Below are positions 45,505 through 55,529 of a stretch of 64,000 nt of DNA, one piece after another. This DNA comes from Natronobacterium gregoryi SP2 (GTDB lineage: Archaea > Halobacteriota > Halobacteria > Halobacteriales > Natrialbaceae), in assembly GCF_000230715.2 (NCBI RefSeq), contig NC_019792.1, forward strand, positions 372,001-436,000, read 5' to 3'. The notes beneath the pieces were generated by a model, which saw nothing but the letters and a program-made list of their open reading frames with translations, did not search any database and had not been told where the DNA came from. The position numbers and the translations under genes were made by a program. Every line of letters starts with the position of its first letter. The stretch's first letter is position 1.

Positions 45505-46734
45505 ATGTACGACACGATTCTCGTGCCGGCCGACGGGAGTCCGGTGGCGGAAAACGCTGGAACGTACGCGATCCAACTCGCGGAACGGTTCGATGCGACA
45601 CTACACGTCGTTTCGATCCTCGAGCAGGGCGTCGTTGGCGGTGACGAGGAAGGCGACGGGAAACGGGCTGTCGACGAACTGATCAAGCGAGCGAACGATC
45701 GCGGCCTCGAGACGACGACCGAACTCCGCGAGGCGGACGGCGACGTCCACGAAGCGGTCCTTACGTCGGCCGACGAGCGCGACGCAGACCTGATCGCGAT
45801 GGGGACGACCGGCCGAAGCGGGCTTGGCCGATTCCTGCTGGGCAGCGTCGCAGAGCAAACGCTTCGGGAGTCGTCCGTCCCGGTCGCGACCGTCCACGAA
45901 GAGACGAGCGCCGAGGCCAAGTTCGAGCGCGTCCTGGCCCCCATCGATGGAAGCCACAGTGCGGAGACGGCACTCGAGCACGCCATCGATCTCGCGACCG
46001 AAACGGGTGCGCGGCTCCACGTCGTCCACGTGAGCGACGAGGGGACGGTCGACGGTCTAGAGACGGTCGACATCGACGACACCGACGGTGTCGGCCTCGA
46101 GCCCGTCGACGACGCCTTCGAGCGTGCCCGCGAGTCAAATCTGGACGCCGTCGACGTCTCGGCCCCGAGCGGTCGGGTCGACCAGCGCATTCTCGCGACG
46201 GCCGCGATGCACGACACCGACTGCATCGTGATGGGGACACACGGCGAGACGGGGCTACGACGGTATCTCCTCGGGAGTACGACAGATCGCGTCGTCCGCT
46301 TCGCTGGCGTCCCAGTGATCGCTATCAGCGCACCACGGGCCGAGACCGCGACCGTCGAGTACCTCGACTACCAGGTCGTCGACGACCGGGACTGGTCGCT
46401 CGAGGACGACGACCTCCTCGAGCAGGCCGCGAACGCGGATCTCGACGCCGGCGCTTACGGCACGTTCGAGGTGGGGCGTGACGAGTACGTCCTCGACGCG
46501 GCCGAAGCTGCAGGGCACGACTGGCCGTTTCACTGTCGAGCAGGCGGCTGCGTGAACTGTGCCGCGGTGCTTCTCGCGGGAGAACTCGAGATGGACGTCC
46601 AGCGGAGCCTCTCGGAAGAAGAGATAACGGAGAAGGGGTTCCGGCTGACCTGTGTGGCCACGCCAGCGAGCGACTCGATCGAGTTGGTCTACGGCGCGAA
46701 ACACCGCGACGAACTGCGAGACCGCGTCGTCTAG
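45505..46734 (+). CDS. Tandem universal-stress-protein domains fused to a 2Fe-2S ferredoxin
   Basis: A 409-residue fusion. Residues 1-130 and about 145-275 are two UspA domains: MYDTILVPADGSPVAENAG with GTTGRSGLGRFLLGSVAEQT, and FERVLAPIDGSHSAETALEH with GTHGETGLRRYLLGSTTDRV, both with the ATP-binding G-x2-G-x9-G-S/T motif. From about residue 287 follows a whole haloarchaeal plant-type ferredoxin (VEYLDYQVVDDRDWSLEDDD ...) with cluster ligands Cys344, Cys349, Cys352 and Cys383 and the usual C terminus. The frame is continuous, with no frameshift. It suggests nucleotide-sensing coupled to electron transfer. Confidence 0.9.
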   Translation: MYDTILVPADGSPVAENAGTYAIQLAERFDATLHVVSILEQGVVGGDEEGDGKRAVDELIKRANDRGLETTTELREADGDVHEAVLTSADERDADLIAMGTTGRSGLGRFLLGSVAEQTLRESSVPVATVHEETSAEAKFERVLAPIDGSHSAETALEHAIDLATETGARLHVVHVSDEGTVDGLETVDIDDTDGVGLEPVDDAFERARESNLDAVDVSAPSGRVDQRILATAAMHDTDCIVMGTHGETGLRRYLLGSTTDRVVRFAGVPVIAISAPRAETATVEYLDYQVVDDRDWSLEDDDLLEQAANADLDAGAYGTFEVGRDEYVLDAAEAAGHDWPFHCRAGGCVNCAAVLLAGELEMDVQRSLSEEEITEKGFRLTCVATPASDSIELVYGAKHRDELRDRVV

Positions 46735-46809
46735 AGTCTCCGTCCTGGGAACAGCTTTATCCGAGCGATCGATGTCCGTATAGTCACAGTCGCGTGACAC
46801 GTCGATACC

Positions 46810-47460
46810 ATGACGGCAGACACCAACAACGAACTCACCCATCATCTGGTCGTAGCGATCGGGAGTATCGCCGTGGCGGTCCTGCTGTGGGTCGTCGGAT
46901 ACGGCGGGCAGCGAGTCGTCGGTGCCGTTCCCTTCTTCGTCCTGTTTGTCGTGATGGTCATCGGCCCGCTGGTACGCATCCGGCCGTCGATCAGACGACG
47001 GTTTTCCGGGAACGTCCCCGTGAACTGGCGGTCGGAACTGGGTATCTGGTTCGCTATCTGGTCCGTTATCCACGTCCTGTTCGTCTTTGCGGCACGCGAC
47101 TGGGATGTCGTCGGCTATCTCGTCGACATGAGTCCGTGGGCGTTCGGTGCCATGATCGCCGTCCTCATCGCAGTCGTGCTGGCGTTTACCTCCAACGACA
47201 GGGCCTACGACTATCTCGGCCCGAAAGCCTGGAAGTGGCACCAGAGCCACGGCACGTACGTCATCTTCTGGCTCGTGGCTGTCCACGGCTACGACCGGGC
47301 GTACCTCCGCCCGTACGAGGAGATGGGCTTTCCATCGGACGATCCGCTCCACCTGCTCTATCTCGCGATGATCGTCGTGGTGGTCGTTCTCCACGTGGTG
47401 GCGTTTGCGGCGGTCGTCTCCGAGTATCGCGAGAGCGGCGACTATCCGCCCGATCTGTGA
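46810..47460 (+). CDS. MsrQ/ferric-reductase-like heme membrane protein
   Basis: A 216-residue membrane protein with six hydrophobic helices. Candidate heme ligands are in SELGIWFAIWSVIHVLFVFA and KWHQSHGTYVIFWLVAVHGY, the paired-His pattern of the ferric-reductase-like transmembrane family (MsrQ/YedZ). It follows the USP-ferredoxin fusion on the same strand by 75 bp, and the two could form an electron-transfer pair (inference). No MsrP partner is adjacent. Confidence 0.82.
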   Translation: MTADTNNELTHHLVVAIGSIAVAVLLWVVGYGGQRVVGAVPFFVLFVVMVIGPLVRIRPSIRRRFSGNVPVNWRSELGIWFAIWSVIHVLFVFAARDWDVVGYLVDMSPWAFGAMIAVLIAVVLAFTSNDRAYDYLGPKAWKWHQSHGTYVIFWLVAVHGYDRAYLRPYEEMGFPSDDPLHLLYLAMIVVVVVLHVVAFAAVVSEYRESGDYPPDL

Positions 47461-47499: not shown

Positions 47500-50244
47500 T
47501 CAGTATCGGTCGAAGTAGCGGTTCTGTACTGCAACGAAGACGGCCATCAGGATCGAGAACGCTGCGACGACGACGGCGATCTGGAGCCAGTGACCGAACT
47601 CGAGTGCGGTGACGCCAAAGAGGATGCTCAGTGGCGTGTACAACACCAGCAACTGGAGGGTGAGGGTGATCGCGATCGCGACCACCAGCCACCGGTTGTT
47701 CGAGAACAGTCCGAGGCCGTAGCGCGATCGGATCGCGCCGATACGGGCGATCGCCATGAACACGAACGCGGTGAACACCATCGTCTGGGCGAGCACCAGA
47801 TCGCCAACGACCTGGTTGTAGTAGTAAAACAGCGGCAACAGCGTAGCCGTGATCAACACGGCGATGCCGCCGATCGACGAGACGATCCGTTCGGTTATCA
47901 CGCCTTCGTCCGGCGGCCGCGGTGGCCGTTCCATGACATCGTCGGCTTCGGGATCGACGCCCAGCGTCAACGCTGGAATGCCGTCGGTAACGACGTTGAT
48001 CCACAGGAACATGATCGGCGTCATCACCAGCCCTGCACCGGACATGATCCCGGTAAACAGCAGAAGGACGTGTGCGCCGTTGGCCGAGAGAAAGTAGTTG
48101 ACGAACTTCCTCACGTTGTCGAAGATCCGCCGCCCCTGACGGACGGCGTCGCGGATCGTCGCGAAGTTGTCGTCGAGCAAGACGATGTCAGAGGCCTGTT
48201 CGGTGACGTCGGTCCCGCGAACCCCCATCGCGACGCCGACGTCGGCGTTCTTGACCGCCGGTGCGTCGTTGACGCCGTCGCCCGTCATCGCAACCGTGTG
48301 TCCTTTCCTCTGTAGCGTCTTGAGAATCCGCGTCTTGTGGTCGGGTGACGTCCGAGCGAAGACGTCGACGTCTTCGACCACCGCAGCCAGTTCCTCGTCG
48401 CTCATCTCCTCGAGTTCCGGCCCCTTGACTACCCGTGCCGACTCGAGACCGATCTCTGTGCCGACCGCTCGCGCGGTGGTCGCGTTGTCGCCGGTGATCA
48501 TGACGACGTCGATGCCGGCGTCGAGACAGCCCTCGAGCGCACCGGTTACCTCGGATCGGGGTGGATCGAGCATTCCCTGGAGCCCGAGATAGACGAGGTC
48601 CTGCTCGTCGTCTTCGGAGACTTCGGCGGGAGCGTCGGGACGGACGGCAAAGGCCATCACCCGCAGGGCGTCCTCGGCGAAGGCCTCGTTGCGCGCTTCG
48701 ATCTCGGCACGTCGTTCGTCGGTCAACTCGACGATTTCGCCGTCGACGTACTCGCGGGTACACCGCTCGAGGACGACCTCCGGTGCCCCCTTCGTGTACG
48801 CGACGCGGTCGCCACCGGGCGTCTCGTGGAGCGTCGTCATCCGCTTGCGATCGGAGGTGAACTCGACCTCGTCGATCCGCGGGTACCGTTCCCTGAGGTC
48901 CTCGTGGTCGAAGCCGGCTTTTCGGGCGGCAACGAAGAGGGAAATCTCGGTCGGGTCGCCGAGGTACACCCGTTCGTCGTCTTCGAAGCCGTCCCCCTCG
49001 TCGCCCTCGACCGCCTCCCCGCGATCCTCACGTCTACCCAGTTCGACGTCGTTACAGAGCATGCCACACCGGAGCAGTTCGTCGATCCGGCCGGGGTCGA
49101 CCGTCTCGTCGCCCCGGCGGAACTCGCCGTCGGTGTCGTAGCCGGTGCCGGCCACGTCGTACGTTTCCCGGTTGGCCGCGATTCGGGTGACCGTCATCTC
49201 CTCCTCGGTCAGCGTTCCCGTCTTGTCGGTACAGATCACGTCGACGGAACCGAGCGCCTCGACGATCGGCAACCGGCGCACGAGCGCGTTCTGTTCGACC
49301 ATCCGCCGGGCACCGAGCGCGAGCGAGAGCGTGACGACGGCCGGGAGTCCCTCGGGAACCGCAGAGACCGCGACGGCGACGGCCGTCATGAACACCTGCA
49401 CCGGCTCCGTATCGCCGATCACCAGTTCCGTGATTCCGATCACCGTCACGACGCCGATGACGGCCGCGGCGATGATCTTGCCGAGTCGATCGAGTTCCGC
49501 CTGGAACGGCGTGTCGCGCTCTTCGGCTTCCTCGAGTGCCGTCGCGATCCGGCCGATTTCCGTCTCCGATCCCGTCTCGACGACGACCGCCGTCCCCGAG
49601 CCTCGCTCGACGACAGTGTCCTTGTGGAGGACGTTCGTCCGCTCGGCGATCGAGGCGTCGTCTTCGATCGTTTCAGGAGCTTTGGAGACGCTAACGCTCT
49701 CGCCGGTGAGTGCCGCCTCGTCGACCCGGAGGTTCGCCGACTCAATTACTCGCGCGTCGGCGGGGACGGCGTCGCCGGACTCGACGAAGACGACATCGCC
49801 GGGGACCACCCGCGTGGCGTCGACCTCGGTCTTCTCGCCGTCCCGGCTGACCATCGCGTACGTCGTCGAGAGCTCCTTCAGCGCTTGAATGCTCTGTTCT
49901 GCACGGTAGTCCTGGGCGAAGCCAAACAGCGTGATGAAGACCACGATGCCGGCGATGACGGCGGCATCGAGCGTCTCGCCGATCGCAGCCATGACGCCCG
50001 CCGCGACGATCAGTACCCAGATCAGCACCGACGTGTACTGCTCGAGGAAGATCCGAAGCGGCGAGGCACCTTCCTCGGTCTCGACTTCGTTTGGTCCGTG
50101 ACGCTCGAGTCGTTCGCGCGCTTCTTCCGAGTCGAGTCCCTGCTCGGAGGTGTCGAGTTCTTCGTAGACGTCCTCGGGTAGCTGTGCGTGCCAGTTGCTG
50201 TCGCGCTCGGGCTCGGTTCGCTCGTCGTATTTTTGCTGTGACAC
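47500..50244 (-). CDS. P-type cation-transporting ATPase (P2, Ca2+/Na+-type)
   Basis: A 914-residue ATP-driven cation pump. The N-terminal cation_ATPase_N domain is followed by the actuator loop ([14 protein letters not shown]), the phosphorylation site Asp340 in [14 protein letters not shown], the nucleotide-binding domain ([14 protein letters not shown]) and the hinge [20 protein letters not shown]. The C-terminal helices include [40 protein letters not shown] is the M4 transport motif, as in Ca2+ or Na+ P2 ATPases. The ion is not certain from sequence. Confidence 0.92.
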
Positions 50245-53117: not shown

Positions 53118-53543
53118 ATGACCGAGCGAATACTCGTTCCGTACGACGGTTCTGCCCCATCGAAGAAGGCACTCGAGTACACGGTCGAGAAGTTCGACGA
53201 TCCGGCCGTCACGACTCTCTACGTCGTTCCGGCACCGGAAGGATACTGGACCGCCTTCGAGGACGACGAGATGGAAGCCGCGGAAGCCGGAAGAGCCCGA
53301 GAACAGGGACAGGAGACGCTCGACGAAGCGAGAGAAACCGGGACAGAACACGGCCACGACGTCGACACGGAGGTCGTAACCGGCAAGCCGGACCGAGCGA
53401 TCCTCGACTACGCCGAAGACGAAGAGTACGACACGATCGTAATGGGAAGCCATGGTCGTGAGGGCGTCTCCCGGGTACTGCTTGGCAGCGTGGCCGAAAG
53501 CGTCGTTCGCCGGTCGCCGATTCCAGTCGTCGTCGTCCGGTAA
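53118..53543 (+). CDS. Universal stress protein (single UspA domain), copy 1
   Basis: A 141-residue UspA-fold protein. The N terminus MTERILVPYDGSAPSKKALE holds the ATP-binding Asp, and the C terminus MGSHGREGVSRVLLGSVAES keeps G-x2-G-x9-G-S, so ATP binding is expected. The central part (AFEDDEMEAAEAGRAREQGQ) is charged and helical. It is the first of three codirectional USP genes, followed after 5 bp by the next. Confidence 0.9.
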   Translation: MTERILVPYDGSAPSKKALEYTVEKFDDPAVTTLYVVPAPEGYWTAFEDDEMEAAEAGRAREQGQETLDEARETGTEHGHDVDTEVVTGKPDRAILDYAEDEEYDTIVMGSHGREGVSRVLLGSVAESVVRRSPIPVVVVR

Positions 53544-53548
53544 TCGTC

Positions 53549-54019
53549 GTGAACTCGATTCTCGTCCCGGTCGACGGCAGCGCCGCCGCAGGCCACGCCC
53601 TCGAGCAGGCACTGCAACTCGCCGACGAGAGCGACGAATCAGTCGAGGTCGACGTTCTCACGGTCGTCGACACGACGACGACTCCGATCCAGTTCGGCGT
53701 GACCGACGTCGTCGAGATCGACAGAGCCAGGATGCTCCTCGTCGACGAAATCGCCGCCGTCTCCGACGATCACGACGCCGAGATACACGGTGCCGTTCGT
53801 CGCGGACGGCCGGCCCGCATCGTCACCTCCTACGCCGACGAGCGAGACATCGACCTGATCGTCCTCGGCCGTACCGAGCACAGTAGCGTCGGCGAGACAC
53901 TGTTCGGGAGCACTGCAGACCGAGTGGTCGAACGAGCACCAGTCCCCGTACTCGTCGTCCCGGAGACCGAAGCCGACGACGACCGTCCGCTGTCCCCACT
54001 CGACTGGTGTCCGGGGTGA
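53549..54019 (+). CDS. Universal stress protein, copy 2 (altered nucleotide motif)
   Basis: A 156-residue UspA-fold protein starting at GTG, MNSILVPVDGSAAAGHALEQ. The C-terminal nucleotide motif reads LGRTEHSSVGETLFGSTADR: the second glycine of G-x2-G is Glu, so ATP binding may be lost. Tight 5-bp spacing to the upstream USP gene indicates one operon. The C terminus has an acidic extension (EADDDRPLSPLDWCPG). Confidence 0.86.
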   Translation: MNSILVPVDGSAAAGHALEQALQLADESDESVEVDVLTVVDTTTTPIQFGVTDVVEIDRARMLLVDEIAAVSDDHDAEIHGAVRRGRPARIVTSYADERDIDLIVLGRTEHSSVGETLFGSTADRVVERAPVPVLVVPETEADDDRPLSPLDWCPG

Positions 54020-54053
54020 GGGTTTAGTATCGTTCCAGTCCAACGTCAGGGAC

Positions 54054-54485
54054 ATGGCACGATCGATTCTCGTCGCCCACGACGACTCGTCACACGCACA
54101 GGCAGCACTCGAGTACGCCCTCGAGACGTTTCCCGACGCACGGATCGTCCTCTTTCACGCGATCGATCCGTTCGCGGTGACGGCCGACGAAAGTGAGTTG
54201 CCCCCACTGACGGAATCGTGGCTCGAGGAACAGCGGGCTGACGCGGCTGAACTCTTCGAGGAGGCCCGCGAGGCCGTCGTCGACGAGGACGTGACGATCG
54301 AGACTGACACCGCTGTCGGTTCCCCGCCGCAGACGATCCTCGGCTACGTCGAAGACTCGGAGATAGACCAGATCGTGCTCGGCGGACGTGGACGGAGTGC
54401 CGGACCGAGTTCGGAGTTTCGCCTCGGTAGCACTGCCGAACTCGTGGTTCGGCGTGCGAACGTTCCCGTCATCGTCGTGCGGTGA
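54054..54485 (+). CDS. Universal stress protein, copy 3
   Basis: A 143-residue UspA-fold protein, MARSILVAHDDSSHAQAALE, with the end motif LGGRGRSAGPSSEFRLGSTA, where the spacing between the glycines is two residues longer than usual. It is codirectional with the previous two and convergent with copy 4. The short gap with copy 2 suggests cotranscription. Confidence 0.87.
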   Translation: MARSILVAHDDSSHAQAALEYALETFPDARIVLFHAIDPFAVTADESELPPLTESWLEEQRADAAELFEEAREAVVDEDVTIETDTAVGSPPQTILGYVEDSEIDQIVLGGRGRSAGPSSEFRLGSTAELVVRRANVPVIVVR

Positions 54486-54506
54486 GCGAGTCGCTCCAGC
54501 AGACAG

Positions 54507-54971
54507 TCACGTCCGACTGCTTTCGTTCCGCACGACCGTGACGGTAACCGGTGCCCGGTAGACGACAGTCTCCGCGACACTACCCAGCAACAACCGTGTC
54601 GCTCCAGTGCGCCCGTGGCCGCCCAGGACGATTTGATCGATGTCGTGCTCCTCCGCGTAGTCGACGATTTCGCGTGCCGGGTCGCCGACGACGCTTTCGG
54701 TCTCGAGGGCGGCGTCGTACTCCGACGTCACCTCTCGAGCGTCCTCGAATATTTGTGCTTCCTCTTTGCCTGCGCGCTCGTACCACTCTTCGGAGCCGTG
54801 TGGCGGCTCCGTCCGAACGTCGATTTCCGTCATCGAGCTGTACCCTGGCTCGGACGGATCGATCACGTGGAGCGCGACGATCGAAACGTCGTCGTACTCC
54901 TCGAGTGCGAACTCGAGGGCTTGTCTGGAGAGTGGCGATCCGTCGACGGGGACGAGTAGCGTACGCGACAT
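54507..54971 (-). CDS. Universal stress protein, copy 4
   Basis: A 154-residue UspA-fold protein. The start MSRTLLVPVDGSPLSRQALE at 54971 is chosen, since an ATG six codons upstream is not conserved in type. The nucleotide motif is canonical (LGGHGRTGATRLLLGSVAET). The middle carries a Glu-rich helix (EEWYERAGKEEAQIFEDARE). It is convergent with copy 3 and codirectional with copy 5. Confidence 0.88.
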   Translation of the reverse strand: MSRTLLVPVDGSPLSRQALEFALEEYDDVSIVALHVIDPSEPGYSSMTEIDVRTEPPHGSEEWYERAGKEEAQIFEDAREVTSEYDAALETESVVGDPAREIVDYAEEHDIDQIVLGGHGRTGATRLLLGSVAETVVYRAPVTVTVVRNESSRT

Positions 54972-55022
54972 CGACCACTCGTACCTCATCGAGTCCCAAA
55001 AGAGTATCCTGGACCAACGCGA

Positions 55023-55442
55023 CTATCTGACGACGGTGACGGGGACCGGGGCTTGTCGGACGACGGTTTCGGCGACGCTGCCGAGCAAGACGCGGGAAGC
55101 CCCGGATCGGCCGTGGCTGCCGATGACGACGAGGTCGACGTTTTCCTCCGTTGCGACCGAGACGATCTCGCGGGCCGGTCGGCCGACGATCGTTTCGGTC
55201 GCTACGTCGTCGTGGCCGTGTTCGGCTGCGACCTTTCGTGTCTCTTCGAACAGCCGGGCGGCGGCTTCGCGGCGGGCGTCGATCAGTGAGTCGTACGCGT
55301 AGACGGCACCGTCGCCGTACATCGACGTGCTGGGATTGATGATGTGCACCAGCCTGAGATCGGCGTCGGGGTAAGCAGTTGCCGCGTGGGCGACCGCTTT
55401 TCTCGCCGGCTCCGAGTCGTCGATCGGCACGAGTACCTGCAT
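55023..55442 (-). CDS. Universal stress protein, copy 5
   Basis: A 139-residue UspA-fold protein, MQVLVPIDDSEPARKAVAHA, with canonical motif IGSHGRSGASRVLLGSVAET. It is 51 bp upstream of copy 4 on the same strand and divergent from the ZIP transporter. Its last residues (ETVVRQAPVPVTVVR) closely resemble those of copies 1 and 4, suggesting local duplication. Confidence 0.9.
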   Translation of the reverse strand: MQVLVPIDDSEPARKAVAHAATAYPDADLRLVHIINPSTSMYGDGAVYAYDSLIDARREAAARLFEETRKVAAEHGHDDVATETIVGRPAREIVSVATEENVDLVVIGSHGRSGASRVLLGSVAETVVRQAPVPVTVVR

Positions 55443-55529
55443 GCTCGTTCGTTCACGAAGCGTCTACAAAAAGGCACGCGCCGGCTCTCGGAGCAACAGG
55501 AGTAAGACGATCTGTTTCCGAAAGTCAGT

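Follow-up and report, generated by a model that had tools for sequence, protein, structure and literature searches.

A single gene of Natronobacterium gregoryi, located in the 64,000-nucleotide stretch of DNA analysed here (the window), encodes two universal stress protein (Usp) domains followed by a ferredoxin. This raises the question of what such a protein may do and with which partner it may work. In RefSeq, the product is named 'ferredoxin Fer', an equivalog name that masks its Usp half and thereby hides it from the annotation, and the membrane protein encoded next to it is named 'hypothetical protein'. A literature search, covering openly accessible papers outside their table bodies, found no description of the fusion. 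The text of a 2025 survey of archaeal Usp architectures (PMC12159084), the body of its Table 2 excepted, lists fusions to permeases and exchangers and does not contain the word ferredoxin. The domains themselves are already known, and it is their combination, together with the membrane partner, that appears to be undescribed.

Architecture of the fusion protein

The features of the locus are listed in Table 1. Translation of the gene yielded one open frame with zero internal stops, and the Usp pair and the ferredoxin are encoded continuously, as the first-pass annotation had proposed. Its identification of two UspA domains, each with an ATP motif, was also borne out: Pfam Usp models matched the protein twice (188.8 bits, cut-off 24), and both domains carry the G-2x-G-9x-G-S motif of the ATP-binding subclass. 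The Fer2 match scored 47.7 bits, and the halophilic ferredoxin equivalog of NCBIfam, NF041393, matched residues 283-409 with 195.5 bits (cut-off 150). Because this match extends over model positions 2-128 of 128, the acidic N-terminal segment of the halophilic ferredoxin is present. The protein contains five cysteines (240, 344, 349, 352 and 383), the last four of which fit the pattern C-x4-C-x2-C-xn-C and lie where the earlier description of a complete halophilic ferredoxin had placed the cluster ligands.

Table 1. Features of the fusion locus (window coordinates)
Feature	Position	Strand	Basis and remarks
Promoter-like element CTACTT...GTGGTAGG, just upstream of the fusion start codon	45472..45495	+	Common to most of 16 group-A relatives; putative function
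Usp-Usp-Fer2 fusion gene	45505..46734	+	409 aa plus stop; conserved in 33 loci
First Usp domain	45505..45897	+	aa 1-131; Pfam PF00582; tandem-Usp fold match TTHA0350 (3ab7/3ab8)
ATP motif of Usp 1, GTTGRSGLGRFLLGS	45802..45846	+	aa 100-114; Gly and Ser invariant, 33/33
Second Usp domain	45919..46329	+	About aa 139-275; Pfam PF00582, two stretches
ATP motif of Usp 2, GTHGETGLRRYLLGS	46234..46278	+	aa 244-258; Gly invariant 33/33, Ser 32/33
Complete halophilic [2Fe-2S] ferredoxin domain	46351..46731	+	aa 283-409; NF041393; PDB 1e0z/1doi aligned end to end
Cluster ligands C344, C349, C352 (46534-46560) and C383 (46651-46653)	46534..46653	+	Invariant, 33/33
TATA-like CTTTAT and inverted repeat GTCAC-N6-GTGAC (46783-46798), 5' of the membrane gene	46755..46798	+	Putative operator
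MsrQ/ferric-reductase-like multi-span membrane protein, 216 aa, proposed redox partner	46810..47460	+	Weak family matches, hydropathy, His residues, adjacency

The AlphaFold model of the fusion reached an overall pLDDT of 63; its Usp part is usable and its ferredoxin part is poor, probably because the underlying alignment contained seven sequences only. The top fold matches of the model are tandem Usp structures, and the best is TTHA0350, which was solved with ATP. Like TTHA0350 (3ab8), the tandem protein 3loq of A. fulgidus and Rv2623, the fusion contains two Usp domains, each with an ATP motif; unlike them, it carries a redox domain, the ferredoxin, after the Usp pair. The nearest solved structures for the ferredoxin part are 1e0z and 1doi, the latter from Haloarcula marismortui. 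In the hydropathy analysis, the fusion showed no stretch hydrophobic enough for a typical membrane span; it was taken as cytosolic and is probably an electron carrier of the cytosol.

Distribution and origin of the fusion

A search for proteins of the UspA-UspA-Fer2 architecture recovered 33 full-length copies from 30 genomes, mostly of Natrialbaceae. Within this family, 27 of 125 genomes carry the full-length fusion, three further matches that consist of Usp only having been left out of this count. An order-wide sample added three carrier genomes from other families, and carriers in a phylum-wide sample of 393 genomes were confined to Natrialbaceae at the strict threshold applied; these searches follow homologues of the present fusion and would miss any Usp-Fer2 fusion that arose separately in other organisms, from domains unrelated to these. 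Two copies reside on large plasmids (in Natrialba magadii and Natronococcus occultus), and the named carriers (L066-L071, L200 and L201) are organisms that we take to be largely from soda lakes. The fusion had been regarded as unusual, and it is apparently undescribed; however, its conservation in the family means that it is no one-off. The fusion occurs once in the genome of N. gregoryi (3,788,356 bases in one contig), which also encodes a single free Fer and dozens of further Usp proteins. A cluster of further Usp genes is located at about 53118-55457 of the window (genome positions 425118-427457).

The other copies are 45-81% identical to that in the window, and 72 of its positions are invariant in the alignment of all 33. 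Every copy retains the four ligand cysteines, D10, D148 and all six motif glycines. Identity to the window sequence is 62% in the Usp domains and 75% in the ferredoxin core, and the linker is variable in sequence. In comparison with a relative of the same genus, dN/dS values were 0.108/0.75 for the first Usp domain, 0.121/0.553 for the second and 0.095/0.654 for the ferredoxin; dN is thus several-fold lower than dS in every domain, indicating purifying selection. None of the 33 copies, which come from separately sequenced genomes, has an interrupted frame, so that a sequencing error can in practice be discounted.

Phylogenetic analysis of 75 ferredoxin domains placed the 33 fused ones in one clade (support 100/99) apart from free Fer, and also apart from a second free paralogue and from a group with a J-domain-like N-terminus. 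This topology is most simply explained by the fusion having arisen once. The fused domain resembles haloarchaeal Fer (NF041393; 1doi, 1e0z) in its full-length match, acidic N-terminal segment and four cysteines, and differs from it by the two added Usp domains and its separate clade. It is about 54% identical to the free Fer that N. gregoryi also encodes, falls outside the orthologous group of free Fer, and has fixed changes near the cluster relative to the latter, among them a replacement of Ala by Gly immediately before Cys349. The group with the J-domain-like N-terminus is represented by open frames of about 240 aa (L188, L189, L190 and L191), in which an HPD motif is followed by a halophilic Fer2 domain; it forms a clade of its own (100/100), and a narrow literature search found no paper on this second type of fusion.

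The neighbouring membrane protein

Although the architecture given in the first-pass annotation stood, that reading had overlooked both the single clade of the fused ferredoxins and a membrane protein gene that adjoins the fusion or is close to it in 27 of the 33 loci, the remaining six having no nearby partner. The product of this gene resembles the MsrQ/ferric-reductase-like family in its multiple spans, weak family matches and conserved histidines, and differs in that its scores are below the cut-offs, both for Ferric_reduct (PF01794; 19.8 bits, cut-off 28) and for MsrQ (NF003831; 25.2 bits, cut-off 130), and in that no MsrP-type molybdoenzyme gene adjoins it, the three PF00174 proteins of the genome being encoded elsewhere. 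Membership of a classical MsrPQ system was rejected on these grounds. A connection of MsrQ-like proteins with other systems of transmembrane electron transfer has also been described (PMC8238504). H88, H144 and H159 are invariant in seven aligned sequences and are candidate haem ligands. A profile search with the family found no relative in PDB, and the AlphaFold model (pLDDT 49) was too poor for use.

Among the 27 paired loci, the two genes are on the same strand in 18 (the membrane gene being downstream of the fusion in 17), divergent in eight and convergent in one. The gap is <500 nt in 22 of the 27 and 2.8 kb at most. Two arrangements predominate, namely a downstream position on the same strand, commonly at 73-82 nt, and a divergent one at 165-530 nt, which characterizes a second subfamily. 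Of the 125 Natrialbaceae genomes, 25 contain both genes, two the fusion only, six the membrane gene only and 92 neither. The membrane gene is therefore present in 25 of 27 genomes with the fusion vs 6 of 98 without it (Fisher p = 1.8e-18, a value that ignores kinship); the two fusion genomes entirely devoid of it are G007 and G101. It was absent from all 50 loci inspected that contain free Fer, J-domain Fer or tandem Usp genes, within flanks of about 1.5-3 kb. In genome G091, the membrane gene adjoining the fusion (L075:9461-10113) is split over two frames, and more copies are present in that genome. A cation P-type ATPase gene adjoins the pair in the window (47500-50244, minus strand) and has a homologue in the examined stretch at 17 of the 33 loci.

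Each gene of the pair seems to have its own promoter. The CTTTAT part of the element preceding the membrane gene is conserved in group A, and the inverted repeat is intact in the window and in a subset of the relatives. Separate promoters argue against a simple operon, and a strict operon is unsupported, both because of the TATA-like element at the membrane gene and because the arrangement differs between the subfamilies.

A more distant branch of the membrane protein family is encoded directly downstream of a different Fer2 gene (L137, L138, L141, L142 and L148), only a few nucleotides away in L137 and L138, and L146 represents a divergent case. No Fer2 gene was found near several other members of the branch (L135, L136, L139 and L147). 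The Fer2 products of the paired genes begin with a twin-arginine-like stretch and a lipobox-like Cys; judged from these signals, this lipoprotein is apparently exported. The gene at L137:7533-7988 encodes such a Tat/lipobox-type [2Fe-2S] ferredoxin, possibly one half of an exported ferredoxin-cytochrome pair. Because the paralogues, too, adjoin Fer2 genes of this type, the membrane family pairs with [2Fe-2S] ferredoxins repeatedly.

Possible roles of the fusion and its partner

Free haloarchaeal Fer is the electron acceptor of 2-oxoacid:ferredoxin oxidoreductases. The genomic pairing, together with the Fer and MsrQ-like backgrounds of the two proteins, suggests that the cytosolic fusion and the membrane protein act as donor and acceptor. 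We give an even chance to the reading that the fusion is a dedicated ferredoxin carrier, tuned by nucleotide or stress, that feeds a membrane b-haem electron-transfer protein. Its ferredoxin half would take electrons from central metabolism, as free Fer does from the oxidoreductases, and would pass them to the MsrQ-like neighbour, from which, we infer, they would reach a quinone or an external acceptor by way of b-haem. ATP or another nucleotide would bind to the tandem Usp domains, which would thereby set how the carrier assembles or docks, or how much of it there is, and this electron branch would run under particular energy or stress states. The Usp half would most likely act through nucleotide-dependent assembly. 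Coupling of nucleotide state to electron delivery by the fusion, which the first-pass annotation had also raised, is plausible because the Usp ATP motifs and the cluster ligands are strictly conserved. A bolder version, in which nucleotide binding by the Usp pair directly switches delivery to the MsrQ-like protein and gives haloarchaea a stress-controlled way of exporting low-potential electrons, with a parallel sister system in which the exported ferredoxin would serve the same membrane family, is tentative and, in our estimate, rather unlikely. Where a membrane paralogue pairs with the exported ferredoxin, electron flow could run in the opposite direction.

The Usp pair may instead be a stabilizing or localizing scaffold, that is, a dimer or oligomer platform for an ordinary second ferredoxin produced under stress, with no nucleotide gating. 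The lower conservation of the Usp domains than of the ferredoxin core and the variable linker would suit such a role. Moreover, control may be transcriptional, because the group-A fusion genes share the promoter-like element. However, all 33 copies keep the motif Gly and the Asp in each of the two Usp domains, which is beyond the need of a bare scaffold, and we consider this explanation possible but doubtful. It is less probable still that the ferredoxin half serves as a redox or iron-sulfur sensor with the Usp pair as its signalling output and that the membrane protein is functionally unrelated. Usp domains are described as signalling partners, for example in KdpD (PMC11018627 and PMC2714519), and the six loci without a membrane neighbour are consistent with this idea; against it, the fusion and the membrane gene are neighbours in two distinct arrangements, and members of the membrane family are also paired with another ferredoxin, apparently an exported one. 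A frameshift, a chance read-through fusion or an assembly artefact with no selected function is ruled out for all practical purposes by the number and divergence of the open homologues, their invariant ligands and dN/dS values well below 1.

The fusion bears on a wider problem, since what universal stress proteins do biochemically has long been an open question. In this protein, a Usp pair is joined covalently to a domain whose activity is easy to measure, and a partner is suggested by the genome; nucleotide control by Usp domains is therefore directly testable in this protein.
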